A DNA stretch of 64,000 bases, taken from the NCBI RefSeq assembly GCF_023243045.1, contig NZ_JALKFX010000027.1, positions 1 through 64,000 of the forward strand. The letters are read 5' to 3'. The notes beneath the pieces are model-generated. The model was given only the letters and a program-made list of their open reading frames with translations, had not been told where the DNA came from and ran no database searches. Below are positions 12,823 to 27,157 of the stretch, one piece after another (position 1 is the first letter of the stretch; each line of letters opens with the position of its first letter). The position numbers and the translations under genes were made by a program. Source of the stretch: Frankia sp. AgB32. GTDB lineage: Bacteria; Actinomycetota; Actinomycetes; Frankiales; Frankiaceae.

Positions 12823-12849
12823 TTGGCACTCGACCTCGCTGAGTGCCAA
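12823..12849 (-). promoter_or_regulatory. CIRCE element (HrcA operator) of groEL
   Basis: TTGGCACTC and GAGTGCCAA flank a 9-base spacer, matching the CIRCE architecture (consensus TTAGCACTC-N9-GAGTGCTAA) with one symmetrical change per arm. It lies upstream of groEL on the same transcript side. Confidence 0.92.
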
Positions 12850-12880
12850 CCACTTTATAGCCCGAAGAGCCTTCAAAGAC

Positions 12881-12900
12881 GAGGTCACCACCACGTCGGA
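12881..12900. repeat. Dispersed repeat, copy 1
   Basis: The 20 bases are identical to 24801-24820, and weaker similarity (CCATCCC and GTGGGG blocks) continues for about 45 bp on the right in both places. Copy 2 sits at the edge of an IS5-family remnant, so this may be a trace of the same mobile element. Confidence 0.6.
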
Positions 12901-12991
12901 GCAGGGTCCACCTCCATCCCGCACTGAGGTGGGGCATGGCGCTCGGATGGGGCATGTGCTCGCCGATCAGCACCCCAGGGACTGGCAGGCC

Positions 12992-13264
12992 TCAACCTCT
13001 GCGATGCCAGCCTCGGCCGTGGCAACTATGACAGGTCCCCCGCCGGACCGTGCCGTTTACCGTCCATTGTACGGTGCCGCTCCCCCCGCAGGTGAAGCAG
13101 CGCCGTTTGGTGGGGTCGGCCTTAATCGCCCTGACCTTAGCCCTTCGCTGCTTCTCGCCCACGGAGGCGAGGACGATGATAATTGCGGCGACGATCCCCA
13201 CGGGCGGGCTTCCGGCGAACACGGCAACCGCGATACCAACGACCACTGCAAAGGTCAGATACAC
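12992..13264 (-). CDS. Small membrane protein with DnaJ-type zinc-finger CxxCxGxG motifs
   Basis: A 90-aa protein starting at GTG 13264 with a perfect AGGAGGG five bases upstream, which makes the gene credible despite its size. Residues 1-36 form two short hydrophobic helices ([17 protein letters not shown] and [15 protein letters not shown]). A basic stretch follows, then [10 protein letters not shown] and CHSCHGRGW, a pair of CxxCxGxG half-sites like those of the DnaJ zinc-binding domain. A membrane-anchored zinc-ribbon protein facing the cytoplasm is the simplest reading. Function is unknown. It lies between groEL and the HerA operon but is not obviously part of either. Confidence 0.7.
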
Positions 13265-13370: not shown

Positions 13371-14483
13371 TCATCGCCTGACGACCTGAACATGGAGATG
13401 GTCAAGACCGTCGGGGAACATAAATCTCAGTACCTTTCCCACATCCTTTTCGACGAGAAGTTTAAACGCCTGCTGCGCCTCGGGGCGCAGGGCCGCGACC
13501 GCGCCAGCGAGACCGCCGGCTGGCGATCTGTCCGGCTCTAGTTCTCGCTGGAAGAACGCGTCCGGAACCTGGTACTCCATTTTCAGGACAGGTCGCGTAT
13601 TCGCGACGGTGAACGGCTTCTCGGTGATCACCCGACCAGGGGTCGAAGTAATATCATAGTAGTTCTTCTTCTCGGGATGCCCTGCATCGTAGTACTCAGC
13701 AAGCGCTCCGGCCGGATCCATTCTGGGGTTCCTGGGGAGTCCTAGCGCGATCTTCGCGTCCACCTTCGCTTCACCTTCGCCGCCGAGCATGTCCCGGTAG
13801 AACTGTGCGACGGCCAGTACCGAATCCTTCGTGCGCATGAAATTAATAGTCTTCCCAGCATAAACTCCGATGTCGACGGCGGCGCCATCCCGGTGCGGCG
13901 AGGGACCCTTGTCCGGGCGATAGAGGCTCATAATCGCAAAATCAACGCCTGTCGCTCCGTCCGCGCGCCGCCGTTCGGCGGCCGATAGCATGCGGTCAAG
14001 CACCCTCGCGAGGTCCGGACTCATAGATAGATCCAGCCCCTCCGGCGCGTTTACCATAGATTTCAGCCAGCGAGCGGATGCGCCGTCCGTTAGCTCGCGG
14101 GTCTTCGGATTCGTAACGTCGTCTCCGAATGAAACCAGGCCGTCATCCCTGGCTTGCAGAAGCCTCTCGGCAAGAGCTCCGACCTCCTTACGGTCGGCTA
14201 CTGTCCGCACTCCACCCAGATCATGAGAATCGACGTGCGAATTTCGCTCCGGCGGCCTGCCCGCGTCGGCGGCCGGGGCGCTCGGAGGCCCGGTTGGTTG
14301 AGCTATATCGGTGTGCCGACCCTGCGCCGATGGCTCGTCCGGATGCCCGCCCCTCGCCCCTGATCCTGCCGGCGCCTGCATCTGAGCGTCAAACTGCCTG
14401 CGCCACTGCCCATCCGGGGTCTGAGCGGTTTGAGAGACCGGCGGTGGACTTCTGTCTGGGGTCCGGGCAGGGGTGTCAACCAT
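13371..14483 (-). CDS. LAS-type (MepA/M15-like) zinc peptidase domain protein without signal peptide
   Basis: A 370-aa protein, last gene of a four-gene operon; its ATG overlaps the stop of the HerA-type ATPase gene by 8 bp. Residues 1-95 are Pro/Gly/Ala-rich and probably disordered. The C-terminal domain has SPHRDGAAVDI (H197 and D204) and ends with LDHLHVQ (D361, H362, H364), the spacing and order of zinc ligands in LAS-fold peptidoglycan peptidases. No signal peptide, TM segment or lipobox is visible, so if it acts on cell wall it must be exported another way, and the adjacent ATPase and membrane partner are obvious candidates. Activity is inferred from motifs only. GC is lower than in core genes nearby. 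Confidence 0.7.
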   Translation of the reverse strand: MVDTPARTPDRSPPPVSQTAQTPDGQWRRQFDAQMQAPAGSGARGGHPDEPSAQGRHTDIAQPTGPPSAPAADAGRPPERNSHVDSHDLGGVRTVADRKEVGALAERLLQARDDGLVSFGDDVTNPKTRELTDGASARWLKSMVNAPEGLDLSMSPDLARVLDRMLSAAERRRADGATGVDFAIMSLYRPDKGPSPHRDGAAVDIGVYAGKTINFMRTKDSVLAVAQFYRDMLGGEGEAKVDAKIALGLPRNPRMDPAGALAEYYDAGHPEKKNYYDITSTPGRVITEKPFTVANTRPVLKMEYQVPDAFFQRELEPDRSPAGGLAGAVAALRPEAQQAFKLLVEKDVGKVLRFMFPDGLDHLHVQVVRR

Positions 14484-17481
14484 AATTCCTCACCAGCAGC
14501 ATCACGGGCCAGTCTCCGACATCGAACGGGGCGAGGGAATCCACGACCCGCCGACTCCAGTCAGAGCTGACCGGGCGATTTCCAATCATCAGCTCTATCG
14601 TGGACGGTCGCAGACTGCCAAATGTGACGGCATCCAGCGCCTCCCAGTCTCCTATTGCCGTGTCATACCACCGTTCCACCACGTCTCGCTGTTCCGCTCT
14701 GGTGACACCCGGAATCTTACGCAGATGACGACGCTCCCACTGGGGTGTGTCCGGATGCGGACCATCCTCACCCACGGTGCTACTCAGTTCCCGATACACC
14801 GCAGCCCATTTGTACTGCTCGGCCAGAAAAGCGAAATTATCGCCATTGCAGGGCGGAGTTATTTCGGCCATGACCAGCCGCAGCACCTCAAGGCAGTGTA
14901 TGGCCAGTTCATTCTGGTCGGCATCGGGCTGAAGCGAAGCGGCGCGCACCGCGACCGCGGCATCGACCGCATGAGAGATTGCGCAGTCAAGTTCTCGTTG
15001 GTCCATGCCGTCGATGAGGCTGGCCTGCCCGGGGATGAGCTCCGGAGTCCGCCGGCCGGTCAGGTGGGCGACAACGGTGAGCTCCACCAACAGGACGAGC
15101 CACGAGTGCCGGCTGAGGATGTGCTGCGCGTCGCGAATCTGCCGAAGGCTGCACGGGGCCTGGGCACAGGACGAAGGGCACGTCGAACTACGAGGTTTGA
15201 TGAGTGGAATGAGTGAGGCTGTCCTGGGCCGGCTGGAGTCGTCGAGATCGTGACTGGACGGTACCCGTAGGAGGATCGGATTGTCCATGCCGTCGGTGGT
15301 GACGGCCGCCTGTCCACGAATGAGAGACACGACGTGACGGGATTGTCTATCGTCGAGGTTCATGGTAGCGCCAACGGCATCGCGGTCGTCCTTGGCTGGC
15401 AGCCGATGCATGATCTTGACAGCGGTATTCTTGATAACATCGGGAATAAGCTTGCTCGGGATCTGCTCGGCGATGATGATCCCCTCGCCGTATGCGCGGA
15501 CCTCGGCAAGCAGTGCGGCGAACATCTCGACTGCGTGCGAAGCCGGCCCGGCGGCTCCGGGTTCCAGTCGACGCAGCAGCCGATGTGCTTCCTCTATCAC
15601 CGTGAGATGGTCGAGGTCTCCACGCGGACCACGCATCCGCAGATGCTCGGTCAGCCGGATGAGAATGGCGCCCATCAGGAACGACTTGTCCGCGTCGTCA
15701 CCGACGTCCTGGATCTCGAAGATGACATTTCGGCTACGCAACTCCGTGAAGTCCAGCGGGTGCCCTCCCTCAAAAAACCGCCCGGTGGTGCCAAGCCGCA
15801 GGCTACTCAGTCGCACCTTGATGAAGCCCTGTACGTCCGCGGCGATATCTTTGCCGTAGCCAATCTCGGCCACCACGGTGGCCGCCGCCCGTTCCAGATC
15901 GCTAAGAGTCGGAAATCGCCGTGTAGGTCCAGGTCGGGCCGGCTCGCCCAACGCGAGATCCCAGCCCAGTTTCTCGTAGCAGCGGGTCAGCGCGGTGGCG
16001 AGCACCTGTGGGAACGGCTCGTGTGCCTCGAAGGCGGCGAGAAAAAGCGCGCGGAGCAAGTCCACATGGGTCTGCAGGGGGAACCCTGGTTCCGGCTCGA
16101 GGGGGTTGAGCCCGGCCGGCGGAAGTTCCTTGTCGCCGGGCCTGATTACGACCACCTCAGCGGAAAACGACGCGAGACGCTCAACGATCCGCGCGTACTC
16201 TGCCTTCGCCGGCTCGATCACCAGCCACGGAAGGCCGGCCCGGCTCGCCTGAGTGAGAAGATGGCGCACGGTATGCGACTTTCCTGTCCCGGTGGCGCCG
16301 CAGACGAACAGATGTCGATTCAGCGTGTCGCGACTCAGCGCCAGACTGCCGACCACCGCCCCCGATTCGTCGAGGACCTCACCGAGCGAGAGACCAGCCG
16401 GGTCGCTGATCTCCGGTGTCACGTCGAAGGTGTGCTGATTGACGACCCGTAAACCCGGCAGTTCCCGCTCGGGTGGGCGGGTCAGTGCCGCGAGCAGTTC
16501 GGTTCCCGCGATGAACGCGTTCCGGGCGCCGAGCGGATCCTCCCTCTTTACCTGGATGGCGTCGGCGAACGGCGCCGGCTGGCCGGCCGGGGCCAGCACG
16601 TAAGGCAGGCCGTCCAGCTCCGCTGCCCCGCACAGCATCGCGGCAGCCACTGCCGTGGGCCCGGGCGCCGTGCCCCCGACCAAGACCCGGATCCGCCAGG
16701 CGCCGCCGACCTGAGCGCGGCTGAGTTCGCGGTGACGCAACTGCTTACGCTCCAGCGCGACACGCCTGGTCTCGCCCACCTCTCCCCGCGATAGCGGGAG
16801 GATCTCGCTGGTCAGCAGGTCTAGCTCTGGACGCAGGTCGTCGGGCAGCAGCGGCTCTGCGACGACAAGCCAGACAAGCGGCACGCGCAGGGTCGCCACG
16901 TGCCGGTCGAAGGAACCCCGTCGGGTGGCCGGCCGGTCCTGCCCCGGATGGGCCGGCGGCGCCCACAGCGCGTCGGCCCGACCAGAGCAGGCGACCCACC
17001 AGGAGAACTGGTCGATGAGGCGAACGACGGAACGGGCCGCGACGGCGGTCGCGGCGGCACCCACCGGAAAGAGCACCGGGCGCGGTTGTGGCCTCTGTCC
17101 GTTCGAGCCACCAGTCGGCTCGCCGTTGGCCGTGTCCTCGCCCACCACCTCTTGCGATGCCGCGGGGGGAAAAAACGGGCGACCACCGAGCAGGACGTGG
17201 ACGCGGCCGCCCGGTCGCGCGCGTATCCACGCGGACGCCAACGCGGGTATGGGCTCGCCGCTGCCGAGCAGAGCGGCGTGCGCGCCGGCCAGCGACATGG
17301 CCAACGAGCCCAGCCGCGGGTCGCCGCCTTCCCGTTCCTGGTCCCGGTCCGCCTGCACACGGGGTACCTGGGTGAGCGCGTGGAACGAGAAGCGGTGCCA
17401 GTTGAATGCCGGCATCGGTTGGGGGCGCGGCCGGCCGGACACCACCTCAGACCGTCCTTCCTGGCTGGGCGGTCTGGTCAT
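14476..17481 (-). CDS. HerA/VirB4-like ATPase (DUF87-type)
   Basis: A 1,001-aa P-loop ATPase. Residues 1-370 have no recognised domain. Walker A is GATGTGKS at 395-402, preceded by NRHLFVC as in HerA-type enzymes; Walker B is LTVIEEAH at 626-633; an arginine-rich helicase-like region and QSRHVVSLIRGQAAV follow. HerA/FtsK-class motors move DNA or protein and form hexamers. The C-terminal 250 residues are unique. The gene overlaps its upstream partner by 4 bp (ATGA) and its downstream neighbour by 8 bp, so all are co-translated. No relaxase, nuclease or integrase is nearby, which argues against conjugation and against the usual HerA-NurA pair. Part of a system I do not recognise. Confidence 0.85.
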   Translation of the reverse strand: MTRPPSQEGRSEVVSGRPRPQPMPAFNWHRFSFHALTQVPRVQADRDQEREGGDPRLGSLAMSLAGAHAALLGSGEPIPALASAWIRARPGGRVHVLLGGRPFFPPAASQEVVGEDTANGEPTGGSNGQRPQPRPVLFPVGAAATAVAARSVVRLIDQFSWWVACSGRADALWAPPAHPGQDRPATRRGSFDRHVATLRVPLVWLVVAEPLLPDDLRPELDLLTSEILPLSRGEVGETRRVALERKQLRHRELSRAQVGGAWRIRVLVGGTAPGPTAVAAAMLCGAAELDGLPYVLAPAGQPAPFADAIQVKREDPLGARNAFIAGTELLAALTRPPERELPGLRVVNQHTFDVTPEISDPAGLSLGEVLDESGAVVGSLALSRDTLNRHLFVCGATGTGKSHTVRHLLTQASRAGLPWLVIEPAKAEYARIVERLASFSAEVVVIRPGDKELPPAGLNPLEPEPGFPLQTHVDLLRALFLAAFEAHEPFPQVLATALTRCYEKLGWDLALGEPARPGPTRRFPTLSDLERAAATVVAEIGYGKDIAADVQGFIKVRLSSLRLGTTGRFFEGGHPLDFTELRSRNVIFEIQDVGDDADKSFLMGAILIRLTEHLRMRGPRGDLDHLTVIEEAHRLLRRLEPGAAGPASHAVEMFAALLAEVRAYGEGIIIAEQIPSKLIPDVIKNTAVKIMHRLPAKDDRDAVGATMNLDDRQSRHVVSLIRGQAAVTTDGMDNPILLRVPSSHDLDDSSRPRTASLIPLIKPRSSTCPSSCAQAPCSLRQIRDAQHILSRHSWLVLLVELTVVAHLTGRRTPELIPGQASLIDGMDQRELDCAISHAVDAAVAVRAASLQPDADQNELAIHCLEVLRLVMAEITPPCNGDNFAFLAEQYKWAAVYRELSSTVGEDGPHPDTPQWERRHLRKIPGVTRAEQRDVVERWYDTAIGDWEALDAVTFGSLRPSTIELMIGNRPVSSDWSRRVVDSLAPFDVGDWPVMLLVRNYG

Positions 17482-19463
17482 CGGCGGACCGGAGCGGTTG
17501 CGACGCGGTCCAGCAGGGCGATACCAGGATTGCTGTCCGCCATGATCATTCGGCGGCCATGCGTGGAGTTGTCGATCAGAATGAACGCGCTTTGCGGCAT
17601 CGTCAGTATCTCCCGCGGTTCGACGACGAACTCATACACGCGACCGGTCACGGTTGAGGTGCTGATGTTGTCGGCGATGGACCAGTTGCGGGTTCCCGCC
17701 CAGGCATGGCCGCGCGAGTCGGACAGGCTCTGGCGCCGGCCGGGCAGCCCGGATGACCGCTGTTTGCCGCTGGCGCTGTCGTTCGTGTTCGTGGTGAAGC
17801 TGTCACCACCGCCGTCGTTGAAGCTCGTGCCGACCTGACGGGTCACCTGGTTGACGACGAACCGGTGCCCCTTGCCGATGAATTCGGCAGCGATGGCCGC
17901 GTCGCGGTGGTTGTACATCTTCATGAAGACGACGGCTCCGCCGGTGCCGGCGCTCTTCTCGAGATCGCCCTGCGGCTGGTCGACCATCAGAACCAGGCGG
18001 AGGCCGGCCCATCGGGCATGCTCGGAAAGGTCCCGCAGAGTTCCCGCGCCCAGATGGTCGCCGCCCGCGACGACGAGGAACCCGTCGAGGTCGGTCCGTT
18101 CGCCCATCGCCTGCCGGGCCATCTGGACCAACAGGCGATCGAGCAGTTCCTTGCGGTCGTCGCGGCCGCCACCGGTCGCGACAACCGAGACATCGGCGCC
18201 CGGCCACAGCGCGCGGGACGCGGGCTGGCCGGCTACGGGGCCGGGAACCATATCGTGAAGCTGGTCCAACTGGCTGGCCAGAAACCTGAGCTGGCGGGAC
18301 GTCCATTCGTCCTGGTCGACGTCGCCGATCTGGTCTGCGAGCCGGCCGAGCTCCTTGGCGGACAGCGAGCCGGCTCCGTCGCCACGACGCAGCACCCGCA
18401 CTCCGGCGGCCAGCCGGGCAAACGACGGCGGCCCGTCCAGGCTGTCCACGACACGACGCAGAACGTCGGTCGCCGACGCGCGCTCCTCCCGACGGTCGCC
18501 TTCCGGACGGCTCGCGAGAGCCTGTCCCAGGACCTCGGCGACCTCACGGCGGCGCAGTTGGCCAAGTAGGTCCACAGTCCGGTCGACAGCACGCCCGGCG
18601 CTACCGCTGCCCAACCGGATCATCCGGATCTGCCGCCCGGAGGCGAGCGCGACCTCGGTCAGGCCCCCACCGACATCCTGGCCGGTGAAGTCCAGCACGG
18701 TGATCCGGTGTCCGGCAGCGAGCACGGAGCAGCCCAGTGTCACCAGCAGGCTGGCCCATCCGTGCCGCTGCGGGTCGCCGCCGAACACGTCCACCCGGGT
18801 CGGTTCGACGACCGGACGCACCGGATGCCACCGCGGGCCGTTCTCCCACTCCCGCACAGCGCGCCGATGGGCGGCTGCGGCCCCGTCATGCCGGCGCCAC
18901 GCCTGCTCCCAATGCTCCACGGCCTCCTGATGTCGCCGTTGCTGTTCGGCGCGCGCCTGCTGGTACGGCCGGCGGAAGCTCCGCAGCTGCCGCCCCGCGA
19001 CGATCACGGCGCGAACCGCGTCCACCAGGAACAGGCCGACCACGACAGGGAGCATGATGCGAGCCGCCCGGTACACCTGCCATCCGTCGTGGCCGTGCCC
19101 CGCGACGAAGCTCTCGATCTCCGGTTGGTAGCCGCCGTACAGGGCGACCGCGAGGACGGTCGCCACGAGCTGCCAGACCAGGCGGGAGACCGCGCTCGAC
19201 CGTCGGGCCCGCACCGAATGATCATCGATCGCGGGTGGTTCCGACCAGGCTGGCCGCGGGTGCACCGGAGGCAGGATGGGCTCCGGAGGGCGTGCCACGG
19301 CCTCCCAGCCCCACCGGGCGGGCAGGGTGAACAGCCGAGTGGCAAGCTGGTCCGACCAGGATCCTACATCCACCGGCGTCGACCGCGGCCCGGCTTCGGT
19401 CAGAGCCGGGAAGCCTGTCTGATCGACCTGGTCGGCCTGCCGACGCCGACGGGCGCCGTTCAT
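17478..19463 (-). CDS. Two-TM membrane protein with TraD/HerA-like, P-loop-less ATPase domain
   Basis: A 661-aa protein. Residues 95-112 and 136-156 are hydrophobic helices; 165-205 is a charged, probably coiled-coil segment. The cytoplasmic part starts RVDVFGGDPQRHGWASLL, where an FtsK/TraD-type motor would have its P-loop, but the GK(S/T) is absent. It continues with VLDFTGQDVGGGL and a Walker-B-like hydrophobic strand (GFLVVAGGDHLGAGTL). The end (MKMYNHRDAAIAAEFIGKG, then VVEPREILTMPQSAFILID) resembles the C-terminus of TraD/TraG coupling proteins. I infer an inactive ATPase serving as membrane platform for the active HerA-type ATPase, which overlaps it by 4 bp. Secretion or transport is the likeliest role; unproven. 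Confidence 0.7.
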   Translation of the reverse strand: MNGARRRRQADQVDQTGFPALTEAGPRSTPVDVGSWSDQLATRLFTLPARWGWEAVARPPEPILPPVHPRPAWSEPPAIDDHSVRARRSSAVSRLVWQLVATVLAVALYGGYQPEIESFVAGHGHDGWQVYRAARIMLPVVVGLFLVDAVRAVIVAGRQLRSFRRPYQQARAEQQRRHQEAVEHWEQAWRRHDGAAAAHRRAVREWENGPRWHPVRPVVEPTRVDVFGGDPQRHGWASLLVTLGCSVLAAGHRITVLDFTGQDVGGGLTEVALASGRQIRMIRLGSGSAGRAVDRTVDLLGQLRRREVAEVLGQALASRPEGDRREERASATDVLRRVVDSLDGPPSFARLAAGVRVLRRGDGAGSLSAKELGRLADQIGDVDQDEWTSRQLRFLASQLDQLHDMVPGPVAGQPASRALWPGADVSVVATGGGRDDRKELLDRLLVQMARQAMGERTDLDGFLVVAGGDHLGAGTLRDLSEHARWAGLRLVLMVDQPQGDLEKSAGTGGAVVFMKMYNHRDAAIAAEFIGKGHRFVVNQVTRQVGTSFNDGGGDSFTTNTNDSASGKQRSSGLPGRRQSLSDSRGHAWAGTRNWSIADNISTSTVTGRVYEFVVEPREILTMPQSAFILIDNSTHGRRMIMADSNPGIALLDRVATAPVRR

Positions 19464-19491
19464 CGGATGAAGATGTGTCGGGACGATACGG

Positions 19492-20190
19492 TCAGGTGCA
19501 TTTTGGACCTCCGTCGCTGGACAGGCGGACCGCCACCCGACGCAGGTCGACCGCCAGGCAGGCGTCCTGGTCCGCGGCGGAACGGGCGGCGGTGCGGACT
19601 CTGTCCGTGCCTAGCGGAACGAGGAACTCGCAGACCGTCGACGCGAGCGAGCCCTTCACGGGCGCGCAGGCGAGCGTGAGGGCCTGCGCCGCTGCGCCGT
19701 CCGTGGTTTCGAGCCCCCTGGCGATCTGTTGGGTGGCGCGGCGATCGAACCGGAAGACCAGCGAGCCGAGGAGACGATCCCGCAATGTGTCCTCCAGCGC
19801 CTGGAGGGTCTGCTTCCCGGCGACCCCGTCCACGTTCAGGCCGCTTGAGGTCTGGAAGCTGCGGACTGCGGCGGTGGTACCCGGACCGAAAGCCCCGTCG
19901 ATGGTGGGCAGGAGTCCGCGTGCGTGTAGGGCGTTCTGGACCCCCCAGACGCAGTCGTTGCGGTCTCCCAGCCGCACGGGTTCACACGACGCCAGGTCGT
20001 CCCTGCCCCGGCCCGCGCATCCTGCGGCCAGGAGAGCCATGAGCAGGAAGAGCGAACTAGCGAATCCGGCAGTCCGGGCCGCCTGCCGCGACCATGGTCG
20101 AGCACGCCGCCGCCGCCAAACACAGACCAGATCGTGATCGGGTGGGCGCCACACGTCACCAGGACCACGACGCACCGGCCAGTTCCTCAT
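19492..20190 (-). CDS. Lipoprotein with peptidoglycan-binding domain
   Basis: A 232-aa protein, first gene of the operon, 28 bp ahead of the two-TM gene. ATG 20190 is chosen; a shorter start within the basic N-region is possible. The hydrophobic segment SLFLLMALLAAGC ends in a lipobox (LAAGC, C58). Residues of about 68-118 are a PG_binding_1 domain (VWGVQNALHARGLLPTIDG, then TTAAVRSFQTSSGLNVDGVAG). The rest is helical with four conserved-looking cysteines. It would sit on the outer face of the membrane and hold the wall, consistent with a wall-spanning export machine or anchored enzyme complex formed with the downstream products. It is divergent from the AfsR-like regulator. Confidence 0.8.
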   Translation of the reverse strand: MRNWPVRRGPGDVWRPPDHDLVCVWRRRRARPWSRQAARTAGFASSLFLLMALLAAGCAGRGRDDLASCEPVRLGDRNDCVWGVQNALHARGLLPTIDGAFGPGTTAAVRSFQTSSGLNVDGVAGKQTLQALEDTLRDRLLGSLVFRFDRRATQQIARGLETTDGAAAQALTLACAPVKGSLASTVCEFLVPLGTDRVRTAARSAADQDACLAVDLRRVAVRLSSDGGPKCT

Positions 20191-20361
20191 GACACGGATT
20201 GCTACACAAGGTCGTAGGTAGTTTGTTGGACTTATGTTGCCGTCCTGGTCAGCGCCCCGCGGGGTCCTTCGATCTGTGCCTGGGCGACGGACTGCCAGAC
20301 GGATCCAGCGGAGTCGTCGCCGGCGCGCACCGCGCTGACTAGACTCCCAGCGGGGGAGGCT
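20191..20361. promoter_or_regulatory. Divergent promoter region of the HerA operon and the AfsR-like regulator
   Basis: 171 bp between divergent starts. It must hold both promoters. It is more AT-rich than the flanks around 20190-20250. SARP regulators often bind direct heptameric repeats near -35; I see no convincing pair by eye. Confidence 0.5.
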
Positions 20362-23300
20362 ATGGAAATCAAACTGCTCGGCGAGATGCGGCTGTTGCAA
20401 TCTGGGCAGATCATCGATGCAGGGCCGGCACTGCAACGCCGGGTGCTCGCAGTATTGGCCGTGGAAGCGGAAGCAGGAAAGCCCGTTCACACCAATACGT
20501 TGATCGAGCAGGTGTGGCACGACGAAGAAACGCCCAGAAAACCAAACGACAGTCTGCGTGTGTACATCAGCGAGCTACGTCGGATATTCGCCGAGCACGC
20601 CGATGGCGGACCCGCCGTTCGGATCCCCCGCGGCAGAGGGGGACAGTACCGCCTAAGTCTCGATGTTGAACAGATAGACATTTTCCACATGCGCCGGCTC
20701 CGACAACGAGCGGCAGGAGTCACCGGAAACGACGACCGCGTGCGTCTCCTTCGCGAGGCGAACAGCCTGTGGCAGGGCGATCCGCTCAAGGACTTCTCGT
20801 CCACCTGGGCCGAGACCGTTCAGGAAGAGTGGCGCCAGGAGAGGAAGGCTCTGGTCGCGGACTGGGCGACGGCAGAGCTGGCGGCCGGGAATCCACAGCC
20901 CGTGATCGAGCCTCTACGGAAGTTGGTAAACGAAGACTTTGGGAGCGAACGTCACGTCACCCTGCTGATGCGCGCGCTGGCCGCTGCCGGCAGGCGCGGC
21001 GAAGCTCTGGACGAGTTCAGGTCAGCGCACGATCAGATGAGTGAAGAGCAAGGATACCAGCCCGGCACAGAGATGAATCAGGTCTACCAAGAAATCCTTA
21101 ACGACGGTGTCGCGGACGTTGACACGTTGACGCCGAGGCAACGCCGCCACCAGGGTGCGACGTCGCGCGGCCTGGATTCGAACAGCTCAGTTCAGGTGGG
21201 CAGCATTCCGCCACGGGCGGACAATTTCCAGGATCGGCCTCAGGCGCAGAAACTGTTCGATGCCGCCTGCGCGGGGCAGACCGCGGTGCTCACCCAGGTG
21301 GTCGCTGGCCTGGGTGGAGTAGGCAAGACCCAGCTTGCCGCCGATTTCGCTCGGCGTCTCTGGCAGGACGGGCATGGTGAGCTCGATCTACTGGTGTGGG
21401 TGTCGGCACTGACCCGTGACTCCGTCGTGTCCAGTTACGTGAAGGCGGCGGGGGAACTCGGGCTCGGGCGGGACGAAGAGGACCCGGCAGTCCTCCTCGA
21501 GACCTTTCTCAACTGGTTGGAGACCACGCCGCAGCGTTGGCTGATCATCCTCGACGACCTGGCGGATCCAGTTGCCATCGAGGGTCTGTGGCCTCCCCAG
21601 CGACCCACCGGCCGCGTGGTCATCACCACTCGGCGCCGCGATGCGACTCTTCTTGACCGTGGCGGACATGTCAACATCGACGTGTTCTCGGAGGCCGAAG
21701 CGAAGGACTACATAGTCCGGAAACTGAACCGCCGGCCCCACCTGATCGACGACGTCGAGCGGATTGTGACGGTCCTGGGTGCGTTTCCTTTAGCGCTGAG
21801 CCACGCAGCCGCATATATGATCGACATGGATATATCATGCGATGCCTACGCCGACCAGTTCGTAGACCGAAAGAATCAGCTTGAGCGGCTTTTTCCCAGC
21901 AAGGAGAACCGGTTCGACGACTACGCCAACACCGTTTCTACCACCTGGGAAATATCCGTCAAGAAGGCGAACGATCAGTATCCCGCCGGCCTCGCCCGGC
22001 CGCTGATGGAGATCGTCAGCACGTTGAACCCCAACGGCATCCCGGGGCGAGTCCTGCGGGCACGCGCCGCCGGGGCTTACCTGCTCGGACGGATTCGCGA
22101 CAGTCCGGACCGGGACGATATCCACAGCCCGGGCGCGAACACCATCCGGCAGGGGCTGCGTGGCCTGCACCGTTTTCATCTCGTCACATACGAGAACGAT
22201 GTGGTCCGTGTCCACGCGCTGGTGCAACGAGCTGTGCGAGATCACCTCCGCGGAGACGGCTCGCCGGAGAAGGCGGCGGCGCCGCACCAGTTGATGGCGG
22301 TCGCCCGGGCCTCAACCGATGCCCTCCTGGAGGTGTGGCCGCCCGCCGACAGCGACAAGGACCTGAGCCAGCTGCTGCGCGTCAACGCGGTGGCGATCGA
22401 GAACAACCACCCGGACGCGATCTGGGACCCTGAACGCGGAATCCACCCAATCATGACGCGCACCGTCCAGAGTCTCGGGACTGAGGTACGCCTCGGCGAG
22501 GCGGTCGATCTGAGCGCGCGGTTGGACGCCATGTCCGGACAACGTCTGGGGCCAGATCATCCGACCACCCTGGCTCTGCGAAATCAAACCGCCGCGATAC
22601 TCGGCGACAGAGGACAGGTGCGGGAGGCTGTGGACAGCCTCGACGCACTGATCGCGGAAGTCACCGCTGCTCTGCGCAAGGCGCGCGAGGGAGCCGACGG
22701 GAAACTGGTGGAGAGACTGGAGATCGAGCTGGTCGAGGTGCGACGCAACTACGCCTACCAGTCGGGTCAGGCAGGTCGTCCGGCGACGGCGGCGCACCAG
22801 TTGAAGACGGTGCTCGCGGACCAGACGCGGCTACTGGGCGCCGAACACGAGGCGGTGATCGGCACCCGCACCCAGCTTGTGTACTGGCGGTCCAAGGCCG
22901 GGGACACCACCGGCTCGGTGGCCGAACTGGAAGATCTGGTCCGGCTCGCTACCAGAGTCCACGGTGTCGAGAGCCGGCAGACCCTCGAGCTGCGCAGTCT
23001 CCTCGGCACCCAGCGCGGGGACTCCGTCGGGCCCGCGCAGGCCGCCATCGAGATGCAGGATCTTCTCGAGGACATGCGGCGGATACTCGGCCCAGACGAC
23101 CGCGACGTGTCGGTTCTTCGTAACAACCTGGCGATGCAGCGGTGGAGGGCCGGCGACCTGATCGCGGCGGCCGCCGAACTACGGAAGCTGGCCGACGAAC
23201 GGGATCACCTCCACGGGCCGCATCACCGGGACACCATCGCCACGCGTCACGGACTCAGCAGGGTACTCGTCGACCTGAAGAGATTTTCGGAGGCTGCAGT

Positions 23301-23562
23301 ACAACTTGACAAAGTGATCGACGGAACGAGCCGAATGTACGGCGCGAAGCATCCCGACACGTTAGGCCGGCGCTACGCACTTGCCTGCGTCTACGAGCAG
23401 ATGGATCGGCCACACCAGGTGATAGCGGCCGAGATCCTCCACGCTGTCCTCGACGACCAACTGGCTATCCTGGACTCGGACAGCCACGAGGCGGTGATCG
23501 CGACGAAAGAGGCTTTGGCTCGGGTGACAGCCCTCCTTGAAACGGGTGACATGCGCGAGTGA
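20362..23562 (+). CDS. AfsR-like SARP-NB-ARC-TPR regulator (STAND ATPase)
   Basis: A 1,066-aa multidomain regulator. Residues 1-100 form an OmpR-type winged helix (MEIKLLGEMRLLQSG, then RVYISELRRIFAEH); 105-250 are a bacterial transcriptional activation domain (BTAD); 290-600 are an NB-ARC ATPase with P-loop GLGGVGKT (316-323) and Walker B RWLIILDDL; from about 690 to the end are tetratricopeptide-like repeats (LGPDHPTTLALRNQTAAIL and related units). Such proteins sense a ligand through the TPR part and activate a neighbouring operon, here most likely the divergent HerA operon. The stop codon falls directly at the junction with an antitoxin-gene relic, so the C-terminus may be cut short or newly formed there. 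Confidence 0.92.
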   Translation: MEIKLLGEMRLLQSGQIIDAGPALQRRVLAVLAVEAEAGKPVHTNTLIEQVWHDEETPRKPNDSLRVYISELRRIFAEHADGGPAVRIPRGRGGQYRLSLDVEQIDIFHMRRLRQRAAGVTGNDDRVRLLREANSLWQGDPLKDFSSTWAETVQEEWRQERKALVADWATAELAAGNPQPVIEPLRKLVNEDFGSERHVTLLMRALAAAGRRGEALDEFRSAHDQMSEEQGYQPGTEMNQVYQEILNDGVADVDTLTPRQRRHQGATSRGLDSNSSVQVGSIPPRADNFQDRPQAQKLFDAACAGQTAVLTQVVAGLGGVGKTQLAADFARRLWQDGHGELDLLVWVSALTRDSVVSSYVKAAGELGLGRDEEDPAVLLETFLNWLETTPQRWLIILDDLADPVAIEGLWPPQRPTGRVVITTRRRDATLLDRGGHVNIDVFSEAEAKDYIVRKLNRRPHLIDDVERIVTVLGAFPLALSHAAAYMIDMDISCDAYADQFVDRKNQLERLFPSKENRFDDYANTVSTTWEISVKKANDQYPAGLARPLMEIVSTLNPNGIPGRVLRARAAGAYLLGRIRDSPDRDDIHSPGANTIRQGLRGLHRFHLVTYENDVVRVHALVQRAVRDHLRGDGSPEKAAAPHQLMAVARASTDALLEVWPPADSDKDLSQLLRVNAVAIENNHPDAIWDPERGIHPIMTRTVQSLGTEVRLGEAVDLSARLDAMSGQRLGPDHPTTLALRNQTAAILGDRGQVREAVDSLDALIAEVTAALRKAREGADGKLVERLEIELVEVRRNYAYQSGQAGRPATAAHQLKTVLADQTRLLGAEHEAVIGTRTQLVYWRSKAGDTTGSVAELEDLVRLATRVHGVESRQTLELRSLLGTQRGDSVGPAQAAIEMQDLLEDMRRILGPDDRDVSVLRNNLAMQRWRAGDLIAAAAELRKLADERDHLHGPHHRDTIATRHGLSRVLVDLKRFSEAAVQLDKVIDGTSRMYGAKHPDTLGRRYALACVYEQMDRPHQVIAAEILHAVLDDQLAILDSDSHEAVIATKEALARVTALLETGDMRE

Positions 23563-23710: not shown

Positions 23711-24631
23711 GTGACGCATGCGCAGCTCAGTGATGCCGCCTGGGAGTTCATCGGGCCGTTCTTGCCGATCGGCTTGTTTGGTCCGTATCCGGCTCGGTTA
23801 CGGGCCCAGTTCGAGGGTGTGGTCTGGCGGTTCCGGACGGGTTCGCCATGGCGGGAGTTGCCGGCGGAGTTCGGGCGTGGTCGACGGTGCACAACCGGTT
23901 TCGGCAGTGGCGGGACGACGGGGTGTTCGACGCGCTGCTCGAGGGCTTGCTGGCGGAGGCCGCCCGTCGCGGGGAGATCGACTTGTCGCTGGTCGGTGTG
24001 GATTCCACGACCGTGCGGGCGCATCACGACGCGGCGGGGATGCGCCTGAGTCGGGAGACGATCGAGGCGATGGAGAAAGCGGCTGAGCCTGCTGACGCGG
24101 GCCGGGAAAAGGGGGCGTCGAGAAGGGACAAGACGGGCAGCGGGGCGGCGGGCGATGATGATGATGCCGGCACGCAGTGCCGGCGGCGTCGGCGTCGCCG
24201 ATGGGGACTCCGGCTGAGCGTGGCGCTGCTGGGCCGGTCACGGGGCGGCCTGACCAGCAAGATTCACCTGGCCGCCGATCGGCGGTGTCGGCCGCTGGGG
24301 TTCGTGCTCGCCGCGGGGCAGGCCGCGGACAGCCCTCAGTTCGTCGCGGTCCTGAGCACGGCGCGAGCACGGGTACCGGTCGGCCGTCCCCAGACCCGGC
24401 CGGGCGCGGCCTACTCGTCGCGCGCCAACCGCGGCTACCTGCGCCGACGCGGTACCAGGGCGGTCACCCCAGAAAAGATCGACCAGGCCGCGAACCGGAA
24501 ACGCAAGGGCCGTCGTGGCGGCCGGCCCTTGCGCCGCGACACCGGTCTCTACCAGGAACGGAACACTGTCGCGCGGGGCGATCAACAAGCTGAAAGCCTG
24601 GCGAGGCATCGCCACCCGCTACCCGGATGAT
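23711..24631 (+). pseudogene. IS5-family transposase, frameshifted (remnant A)
   Basis: The reading begins at GTG 23711 (THAQLSDAAWEFIGPFLP), changes frame near 23875 to continue as WSTVHNRFRQWRDDGVFDAL and GVDSTTVRAHHDAAG (first catalytic Asp), passes SKIHLAADRRCRPLGFVL and SSRANRGYLRRRG, and changes frame again near 24570 to give INKLKAWRGIATRYPDD. The middle catalytic position, normally in an ADKAYSS context, reads GAAYSS, so the DDE triad is also lost. Two frameshifts and a missing acidic residue mark a dead element. It is joined directly to a second transposase piece. Confidence 0.8.
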
Positions 24632-24800
24632 CTGTGGGCACCGGTGGAACCGTTGCCGCAGAGTTCGGGGTGCCGGCGCCCACCGCGCACCGGCGGTTCC
24701 AATTGTGGACGCGGGCGGGTGTCTGGCCCCGGCAGCACCGGGCGATCCTGGACGCCCATGGTGGTGCCGGGCGGGTCGACTGCTCGTCGGTCTCCGAAAC
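24632..24800 (+). pseudogene. IS5-family transposase fragment of a second element (remnant B)
   Basis: LWAPVEPLPQSS resembles the start of another IS5 subgroup, and in a second frame AHRRFQLWTRAGVWPRQHRAIL plus VDCSSVS matches the region just before the first catalytic Asp of that subgroup. Everything after is missing. The fragment is fused to remnant A without spacer, which suggests one insertion into another followed by deletion. Confidence 0.65.
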
Positions 24801-24820
24801 GAGGTCACCACCACGTCGGA
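24801..24820. repeat. Dispersed repeat, copy 2
   Basis: Identical to 12881-12900. It lies immediately right of IS remnant B and may be part of that element's end or a separate short repeat. Confidence 0.6.
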
Positions 24821-24970
24821 ACCGCGCCCGCCGCCATCCCACCCTGAAAGTGGGGTATCTCCACGAGCAAGGCCTGAAAGGGGGTGCGGGGCTAGGATGA
24901 CGCATCGTGGCGAGAGAGCAATGGATGGATTTGTGACGGCCACTGACACCTGTCACGCAGCCGCCTTGTC

Positions 24971-27157
24971 ATGATTGTCAACGAGGGGCGGGTGGCTGCG
25001 GCGCTGCCCGGCTACGAGCTGGGCGGCGAACTCGGTTCGGGGACGTTCGGGCTGGTACTCGCCGGCCGGCACCGCGGGCTTGACCGCCCAGTAGCGATCA
25101 AGGTTCTGGCCGCCAGCCACGACGGGGCGGCGGCCGAGTTCGCCGTCGAGGCGCGGCTCCTGGCCACCCTGGACCATCCGCACGTGGTTCGCGTCTATGA
25201 CCTCGTCGAGACCGGCGACCTGCATCTGATCGTCATGGAGCTCCTGGACGGCGGAACGCTGACAGCCCGACACAAGATGGGGACGTTGTCGCCGCAGGGG
25301 GCATGCGCGGTGGGTCTGGCGGTGAGCGCGGCGTTGTCCTGCGCGCACGCTCGCGGGGTGCTGCACCGCGACATCAAACCCGACAACATCCTGTTCAACG
25401 CCGCGGGCCTGTTGAAGGTCAATGACTTCGGGATCGCGAAAATCGTGGACGGGTCCGGTGCCACCGCCAGCCAGGTCGCCGGCACCGCGGCCTACATGGC
25501 CCCCGAACAGATCCTCGCGGGCCGGCTGGGCCCGGCCGCCGACGTGTACGCCCTCGGGTGCGTCCTCTACCAGTTGCTGACCGGCAGGCCACCGTTCGAC
25601 CCGGCCCCGTCGATACACGCGCTGTGGGAGCACCACCTCAACACGCTGCCCGCCCCGCCCACCGGCGTACCCGCCCCCCTCGCAGCAGTGGTGTTGCGGG
25701 CGCTCGCCAAGGATCCGGCCGACCGGCCGCCGTCCGCCCACGCTTTCGCCCTCGACCTGGCCAGCGCCGCCGCCACCGTCTACGGCCCGGGTTGGACCGC
25801 CCAGGCCGGGATCGGGCTGCGGCTCGACGACGACATCCGCGCCGCCGCCGCTGACCCTCCATCCCTCCCGATCTCACCGGCGCCCGCGGCCGCCACGGCC
25901 GCCCCCGAGCTCGCCGCGATCGGTACCGGGTACGGGATCGGTGACCCGTCCCTCCGCCCCCGACGAGCCCCGTCCGCCGGTCCGGGTGAGCAGGCAACCA
26001 TGATGGCCGGTGCCGACCAGGCCGTCGGGGCGCCGACGGCCCACGCTCGGCCATGGCGCCGCCTGTTTCGCCGCCGCCGGATCATCGCCCCGTTCGTTCT
26101 TGCGGCCGTCGCCGCCATCGCGGCGGCCACGCTGACCAGCGTGCCTGGTCTTCAGTCGGGATCAGCCACTGCCGTCAGCCCCGACATCCATCCCGTCCCG
26201 CTCGGCCAGCCCCTGACCGGCTCCACCAACTGGGTGACCCAGGTGGCGTTCTCGCGGGATGGGCGCACCCTCATCGACGCCGACGCCAACAACATGGTGC
26301 GACGGTGGGATGTGACCGACCGCGCCTATCCCACCTCGATCGGTCAGCCGCGCACCAGTTCCACCGCGTTGGTCCTGTCGGCGGCGTTCTCCCCCGACGG
26401 GCGGATGGTTGCCTCCGGTGGCGCCGATCACATGGTGCGGTTGTGGGATGTGCCCGACCGCGCCGACCCCACCCGTCTGGGCCAGCTCGGCGAGCCCCTC
26501 GTCGGCCACACCAACTGGGTGTTCTCGGTGGCGTTCTCCCCCGACGGGCGGACGCTGGCCTCCGGCGGTGCCGACAACACGGTGCGGCTGTGGAACGTGG
26601 CCGACCGCCTTCATCCCACTCCCCTCGGCCAGCCCCTCACCGGTCACACCGACGTGGTCCTGTCGTTGGCGTTCTCCCCGGACGGACGAACGCTGGCCTC
26701 CGCCAGCAAGGACCACACGGTGCGGCTGTGGAACGTCGCCGGCCCCACCCGTCCCACCCCCCTCGGCCAGCCCCTCACCGGCCACACCAACCGGGTGCTG
26801 TCGGTGGCGTTCTCCCCCGACGGGCGGACGCTGGCATCCAGCGGTGCCGATGACACGGTGCGGCTGTGGAACGTGGCCGACCGACTTCATCCCACTCCCC
26901 TCGGCCGCCCCCTCACCGGTCACACCAACATCGTCCTGTCGGTGGCGTTCTCCCCCGATGGACGCCTGCTGGCGTCCGGCAGCCAGGACCACACGGTGCG
27001 GCTGTGGAACGTCGCCGACCGCACCCGTCCCAACCCCCTCGACCAGCCCCTCAAAGGCCATACCGCCCCGGTGACGTCGGTGGCGTTCTCCCCCGACGGG
27101 CGCACGCTGGCCTCCGGCAGCCAGGACCACACCCTGCGGCTGTGGCAGATCCGCTGA
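24971..27157 (+). CDS. Membrane Ser/Thr protein kinase fused to a seven-blade WD40 propeller
   Basis: A 728-aa protein. Residues 15-265 are a Hanks-type kinase with G-loop GSGTFG, catalytic Lys44 (VAIKVLA), HRDIKPDN (Asp134), DFG (152-154) and APEQ, so it looks active. A Pro/Ala linker and one TM helix (about 370-392, IIAPFVLAAVAAIAAATL) follow. The outer part has seven WD repeats of about 46 residues (GHTNWVFSVAFSPDGRTLASGG type), enough for one closed propeller. The repeats are very similar at DNA level (period about 138 bp), pointing to recent expansion or homogenisation. It is flanked by IS remnants on both sides; substrate unknown. The start at ATG 24971 has no strong ribosome-binding site, and a GTG 21 bp later is an alternative. 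Confidence 0.92.
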   Translation: MIVNEGRVAAALPGYELGGELGSGTFGLVLAGRHRGLDRPVAIKVLAASHDGAAAEFAVEARLLATLDHPHVVRVYDLVETGDLHLIVMELLDGGTLTARHKMGTLSPQGACAVGLAVSAALSCAHARGVLHRDIKPDNILFNAAGLLKVNDFGIAKIVDGSGATASQVAGTAAYMAPEQILAGRLGPAADVYALGCVLYQLLTGRPPFDPAPSIHALWEHHLNTLPAPPTGVPAPLAAVVLRALAKDPADRPPSAHAFALDLASAAATVYGPGWTAQAGIGLRLDDDIRAAAADPPSLPISPAPAAATAAPELAAIGTGYGIGDPSLRPRRAPSAGPGEQATMMAGADQAVGAPTAHARPWRRLFRRRRIIAPFVLAAVAAIAAATLTSVPGLQSGSATAVSPDIHPVPLGQPLTGSTNWVTQVAFSRDGRTLIDADANNMVRRWDVTDRAYPTSIGQPRTSSTALVLSAAFSPDGRMVASGGADHMVRLWDVPDRADPTRLGQLGEPLVGHTNWVFSVAFSPDGRTLASGGADNTVRLWNVADRLHPTPLGQPLTGHTDVVLSLAFSPDGRTLASASKDHTVRLWNVAGPTRPTPLGQPLTGHTNRVLSVAFSPDGRTLASSGADDTVRLWNVADRLHPTPLGRPLTGHTNIVLSVAFSPDGRLLASGSQDHTVRLWNVADRTRPNPLDQPLKGHTAPVTSVAFSPDGRTLASGSQDHTLRLWQIR

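Follow-up and report, generated by a model that had tools for sequence, protein, structure and literature searches.

Analysis of a 64,000-nt stretch of Frankia sp. AgB32 DNA (the window) points to two adjacent genes, P0003 and P0002, as the motor of a system that exports polymorphic toxins, a reading to which we give roughly two chances in three. In many actinobacteria, among them Frankia symbionts and antibiotic producers, a pair of type IV-type ATPases, one of them always dead, is fixed beside a toxin gene that keeps changing. A bolder proposal, put at somewhat less than even odds, is that the pair forms a previously unnamed, minimal two-ATPase translocon (a dead coupling protein plus a live HerA/VirB4 motor) dedicated to the intercellular delivery of polymorphic toxins in hundreds of actinobacterial species.

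The window operon is transcribed from the minus strand in the order P0004 (19492-20190), P0003 (17478-19463; 661 aa), P0002 (14476-17481; 1001 aa) and P0001 (13371-14483; 370 aa). P0003 and P0002 overlap by 4 nt and P0002 and P0001 by 8 nt, with a gap of 28 nt between P0004 and P0003; since the four genes overlap or nearly touch, a single transcript is likely. Within the operon the GC content is lowest in P0001 (0.62 vs 0.70 for P0003). On the downstream side of P0001, a regex scan detected a 90-aa minus-strand gene (12992-13264) with AGGAGG ahead of it, which codes for a transmembrane (TM) segment and a CxxCxGxG zinc ribbon (weak DnaJ_CXXCXGXG match); groEL lies beyond it and is preceded by an inverted repeat of the CIRCE-like kind (GGCACTC-N9-GAGTGCC) at 12823-12849 on the minus strand. 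On the other side is P0005 (20362-23562), divergent on the plus strand, which encodes a regulator with SARP (BTAD), NB-ARC and TPR domains (Pfam/NCBIfam). To the right of P0005 there is an IS4/5-type transposase piece (23848-24630), adjoined by a gene for a Ser/Thr protein kinase-WD40 repeat fusion (24971-27157, plus strand). A 59-bp direct repeat, 82% identical between its copies, flanks the locus at 12879-12938, near the groEL promoter, and at 24799-24858, before the kinase gene. Empty-site comparison found the groEL and kinase flanks apart or on separate contigs in other Frankia.

P0004 is a candidate immunity, wall-docking or envelope partner. Its listed 342-aa open reading frame is too long because it runs into the P0005 reading frame; the lipobox (LLAAG^C, lipidated Cys codon at 20017-20019) and the available start codons make ATG 20190 or GTG 20154 a plausible start, and the product matches PG_binding_1 at 2.4e-15. 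P0004 was linked to the pair in one other case, at L067 of a different Frankia, where the copy is decayed. Analogues of the 90-aa TM zinc-ribbon gene stand beside the pair at L110, L112, L132 and L135, and its product is a candidate accessory or immunity protein. The cargo in the window has no obvious toxin-type immunity gene, the candidates being P0004 and the 90-aa protein. A role of P0005 as a dedicated regulator was rejected on account of a homologue (55% identical) in Frankia G003 (L197) with no P0001, P0002 or P0003 homologue nearby; P0005 is a local neighbour outside the conserved core. The genes reported in the original prediction are all present, the four of the operon being co-translated as described, and both the wall-binding lipoprotein and the divergent SARP-NB-ARC-TPR gene proposed there stand.

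Judged from its motifs, P0002 is a HerA/VirB4-like ATPase with intact Walker A (GATGTGKS, residue 395, 16276-16299) and Walker B (HLTVIEEAHR, residue 625, 15580-15609), and in a 17-member alignment of its relatives GxTGxGKS and EEAHR are invariant. Profile searches matched it to DUF87 (1e-7), HerA_C (5e-6) and HerA models of NCBIfam/PADLOC, and weakly to VirB4 models, with a score below every curated cut-off of the named HerA families. Profile comparison gave no significant match between P0002 and P0003.

P0003 has TM segments at about residues 90-110 and 129-158, and GK[ST] is missing from its Walker A site, whose sequence is GGDPQRHGWASLL. That motif was kept in 0/99 P0003 homologues, where the site reads GGTxxGWxSLL or similar. 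The AlphaFold model (mean pLDDT 82, built with 45 sequences) shows a RecA-type domain and a TM hairpin together with a long stalk of helices; its best structural match is TrwB (Z 24.2 over 352 residues, rmsd 4.2, 16% identity), followed by VirB4 (Z 22.7), HerA (18) and EccC (14), and a VIA-align comparison leaves other folds possible. The TrwB-like model, taken with the absence of the P-loop from all 99 homologues, argues that P0003 is an ATPase-dead, coupling-protein-like membrane protein. The linkage of the two genes further suggests that P0002 and P0003 bind each other. Both proteins had been anticipated, one as a two-TM TraD-like protein devoid of a P-loop and the other as an active HerA/VirB4-like ATPase, and both descriptions hold.

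A search with P0002 detected a strong relative in 22 of 97 related genomes, and each of these 22 also has a P0003 homologue. Across 84,980 species the ATPase has at least 486 relatives; among the 80 best actinobacterial loci, 71 contain the pair (68 by HMM and 3 by tblastn), and several of those lacking P0003 terminate at a contig edge. Homologues of P0001, P0004 and P0005 were absent near the related pairs, with the exception of one LAS cargo (L080) and the decayed copy L067. The pair is fixed and the other three genes are not conserved; therefore the system consists of P0003 and P0002 alone. A conserved four-gene operon was rejected on the same grounds. The original prediction of four genes as one system, to be judged by the neighbourhood of the 1001-aa ATPase, thus gains the link to P0003 and loses P0001, P0004 and P0005 as a linked set. 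The earlier claim is thus sound as an observation and about half right as an interpretation: the finding improves on it with a toxin slot that is common to the family, and is narrower in that the core has two genes instead of four.

Some chromosomal versions of the pair (Actinomadura, the core Frankia copy) have no adjoining toxin, and therefore its ancestral role may be something other than toxin export. In the Actinomadura chromosomal pair (L087, L093, L099-L103, L114, L115, L121, L126, L133) a conserved 217-222-aa membrane protein fills the cargo slot. The second, chromosomal copy of Frankia is syntenic across the genus (L046 at G000:C177, L041-L044, L063, L064) and adjoins an L,D-transpeptidase-like gene with no toxin cargo, and in Nonomuraea and relatives (L035, L056, L060) the pair lies directly ahead of genes that, judged by sequence, are MurT- and GatD-like. 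In genus g3 (L199, L200) a P0003 homologue is convergent with a SCO6880/SCO6881/VirB4-like operon, with no P0002-type ATPase there. This operon occurs elsewhere in nearly all related Frankiaceae genomes, including a separate locus in the window genome; its position in genus g3 and its frequency in Frankiaceae make it possible that the pair shares a membrane complex with the SCO6880-type locus. An obligatory tie to that locus was rejected as a general rule, since genome G087 has the pair and gave no SCO6880 match. Further afield, an E. coli plasmid (pTW10590_133, L072) and a Lactococcus plasmid (pB26B, L071) carry the order dynamin-dynamin-hypothetical-DUF87 ATPase, then a nuclease gene and a further small gene, which in E. 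coli is SMI1/KNR4; both loci may be cousins of the system, one Gram-negative and one from a Firmicute. The E. coli plasmid locus was found in 1 of 5,426 E. coli genomes, and the phage collection gave only a weak ATPase match, in two unannotated gut contigs.

The gene directly downstream of the ATPase differs from locus to locus. The Pfam matches of 53 proteins from this slot are almost only toxin families (17 families listed): Peptidase_C2 (calpain-type protease, five times), YwqJ-deaminase (four times), zeta toxin, ADP-ribosyltransferase and RelA/SpoT (twice each), as well as Scabin-like, EndoU, Endonuclea_NS_2 (DNA/RNA endonuclease), papain-fold toxin 1 and barnase-type ribonuclease. As a control, 84 genes around the same loci were taken, for which the 25 families listed are of ordinary kinds (regulators, transporters, enzymes). 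The cargo N-termini are Pro-rich and disordered (median disorder-promoting fraction 0.65 vs 0.43, p 4e-31), and a Sec-like segment was found in 0/56 of them. Seven pairs of cargos share an N-terminus (54-88% identity) and differ in the C-terminus, and 19 pairs show the reverse. Swapping of N- and C-termini is the hallmark of polymorphic toxins given by Zhang et al. (2012; PMC3482391), whose trafficking modes are not known to include a motor of the P0002-P0003 type. The family as a whole shows constant N-terminal regions joined to exchangeable toxin domains at the C-terminus, the window member having only one LAS relative (L080). A P[ST]PEFQxxLD motif is common to cargos of Frankia, Actinoplanes, Dactylosporangium and Paractinoplanes and appeared in 0 of 500 shuffles, the motif having been picked post hoc, after the data were seen. 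A W-x3-[FY]-D helix is present in the window cargo and in three L082 genes, and in a looser form in both L080 cargos. WRxxFxxxL, which resembles the cargo motif, opens the P0003 N-termini in the sister operons L078, L079, L081 and L082, and it is perhaps a docking helix shared by P0003 and the cargos. Behind each of the four YwqJ cargos stands a small gene with a MORN_2 match, all four belonging to a single cluster (c14); after other cargos come ankyrin, DUF6086 or small uncharacterised genes. Assignment of the slot gene as a polymorphic-toxin cargo is well supported by these features.

In the window, the slot is filled by P0001, which is most likely a toxin payload, one of many exchangeable ones. 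Its N-terminus is disordered and Pro-rich with a W-x3-F-D helix (14388-14405), and its C-terminal region carries both zinc motifs of LAS (VanY/MepA-like) peptidases, H197-x6-D204 and D361-H-L-H364 (H197, D204 and H364 as the motif residues), which suggests a putative LAS-type peptidoglycan peptidase. P0001 gave no Pfam match and no sequence relative in the PDB, and it was found in 0/96 other genomes searched; its AlphaFold model, built with two sequences (pLDDT 38), is too poor to support the LAS fold and was not used. A relative of P0001 (E=1e-8, both motifs kept) fills the cargo slot of a sister Amycolatopsis operon (L080), whose P0003 is 51% identical to that of the window, and the sister operons of Asanoa, Rugosimonospora and Allokutzneria (ATPases 55-59% identical) hold other cargo. 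P0001 has no signal peptide and no Sec signal; because its peptidoglycan substrate would lie outside the membrane, another export route is needed, most obviously one through the motor pair. The LAS-type assignment of the original prediction is kept as a putative one on its motifs, and the cytoplasmic location proposed with it is not shared here.

In the proposed model, P0003 would be the membrane receptor, coupling-protein-like and ATPase-dead, and P0002 a live hexameric motor of the HerA/VirB4 type, after the template of the VirD4/VirB4 division of labour between receptor and motor (PMC12857230). The product of the downstream gene would be the substrate, recognised by the pair through short helical docking motifs in its disordered Pro-rich N-terminus, and its C-terminus would be the interchangeable toxin, here a putative LAS-type peptidoglycan peptidase active solely outside the cytoplasm. 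P0004, the 90-aa TM zinc protein or both may protect the producer wall or dock the substrate. The window operon and the sister loci contain no channel gene. We infer that the pair translocates the cargo across the membrane, and the nature of the target cells is inferred in the same way.

A different role for P0001 is that of a dedicated, EssH-like wall hydrolase that opens the wall for the machine, with P0004 anchoring it to peptidoglycan. EssH provides a precedent in the type VIIb system (PMC13059805), peptidoglycan is the site of action for both P0001 and P0004, a clear immunity gene is absent from the window, and the second gene of L080, which shares an N-terminal motif with the LAS gene there, could be the true effector. 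We nevertheless regard this role as rather unlikely, given that P0001 occupies a slot that holds unrelated toxins elsewhere, that most operons have no wall hydrolase in it and that no P0001 was recovered from the 96 other genomes. As regards the earlier suggestion of a secretion or wall-remodelling machine, secretion is favoured over DNA processing; the machine is not primarily a wall-remodelling one because P0001 sits in a variable position. A degenerate conjugation module, or a type IV one that transfers DNA and has the toxins as hitch-hikers or addiction genes, would agree with the coupling-protein and VirB4 folds and with the pseudo-coupling protein adjoining the SCO6880/SCO6881/VirB4-like operon in genus g3. 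It is quite improbable, as no relaxase is annotated in the cargo-bearing plasmid stretches examined or in the window operon, the coupling-protein P-loop is always lost, export-like motifs are common to the cargo N-termini and G087 keeps the pair with no SCO6880 match.

The pair might instead serve an intracellular suicide defence, in which a HerA-type ATPase senses phage and frees a toxic effector as in HerA-SIR2 and HerA-DUF4297. The anti-phage HerA families are the nearest to P0002 by profile, the effectors are varied and a STAND regulator adjoins; against this, HerA-SIR2 and HerA-DUF4297 have no two-TM coupling-like partner, Pro-rich substrates or linked immunity, a peptidoglycan peptidase would be pointless in the cytoplasm, and a P0005-type regulator is not conserved with the pair, all of which leaves little probability for such a defence. 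The envelope-sensing defence of the original prediction is likewise a weaker reading than polymorphic-toxin export. Still less credit goes to the idea that the pair hands its cargo to the type VII secretion system of the same genome: EccD is present in the window genome (on another contig) and in most Frankia, and EccC is structurally related to P0003, but the Pfam families listed for the cargos include no WXG/LXG domain, and the complete genome G010, in which the pair occurs in a copy without cargo, gave no EccD match.

According to a 2025 review of type IV secretion (PMC12857230), it has long been asked whether dedicated effector translocators evolved in Gram-positive bacteria, and a single case has been reported. 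If the toxins are exported by the P0002-P0003 pair, they would take a delivery route covered by no described system, a large set of 'hypothetical' toxin genes would be explained, and the pair would offer a tractable case of a pseudo-ATPase as secretion receptor.

Among known systems, the type IV ATPases are a close counterpart, in that the modelled fold and TM hairpin of P0003 match TrwB and P0002 is HerA/VirB4-like, so that one would recruit and one drive. Unlike in type IV secretion, the P-loop is gone from all P0003 homologues, so that there is a TrwB-like fold in place of a VirD4-like protein with an active P-loop, and the substrates are toxins; the channel subunits VirB6 and VirB8 were not found in the window operon or the sister loci, and the window operon has no pilin or relaxase gene. 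In the type IV effector translocator 89K of Streptococcus suis, a Gram-positive bacterium, VirD4/VirB4-type ATPases have likewise been proposed as exporters of a protein effector (PMC12857230); 89K comprises a full VirB1/B3/B4/B6/B8/D4 set with a single protease effector, whereas here there are two ATPases and swapped toxins. With the type VIIb/LXG systems the pair shares an FtsK/HerA-type motor, cargo with a constant N-terminus and a variable C-terminus, and small linked genes. The type VIIb motor is an EssC-like fusion, in contrast to a separate dead receptor and live motor, and the 17 cargo families listed include no WXG/LXG, and EccD is on another contig. Defining features of type IV and type VII systems were looked for and not found, and the system is therefore filed under neither. 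HerA-SIR2, HerA-DUF4297 and HerA-NurA likewise have a HerA-type hexameric ATPase adjoining an effector gene, but they are soluble and intracellular, whereas here the partner is a two-TM pseudo-coupling protein and the substrate is disordered; P0002 itself falls under the curated cut-offs of those families. In the dynamin-DUF87 loci of E. coli and Lactococcus, a related ATPase domain is directly followed by a nuclease and a small gene, with a dynamin pair in place of P0003 and short cargo that has no Pro-rich leader. The mismatch with type IV, type VII and HerA-NurA systems put forward in the original prediction is upheld, as is the missing relaxase, and the cargo fits the polymorphic toxins. 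Our literature search, with subscription papers and some preprints outside its scope, found no description of the system or its engine, and by its cargo the system is filed under the polymorphic toxin systems.
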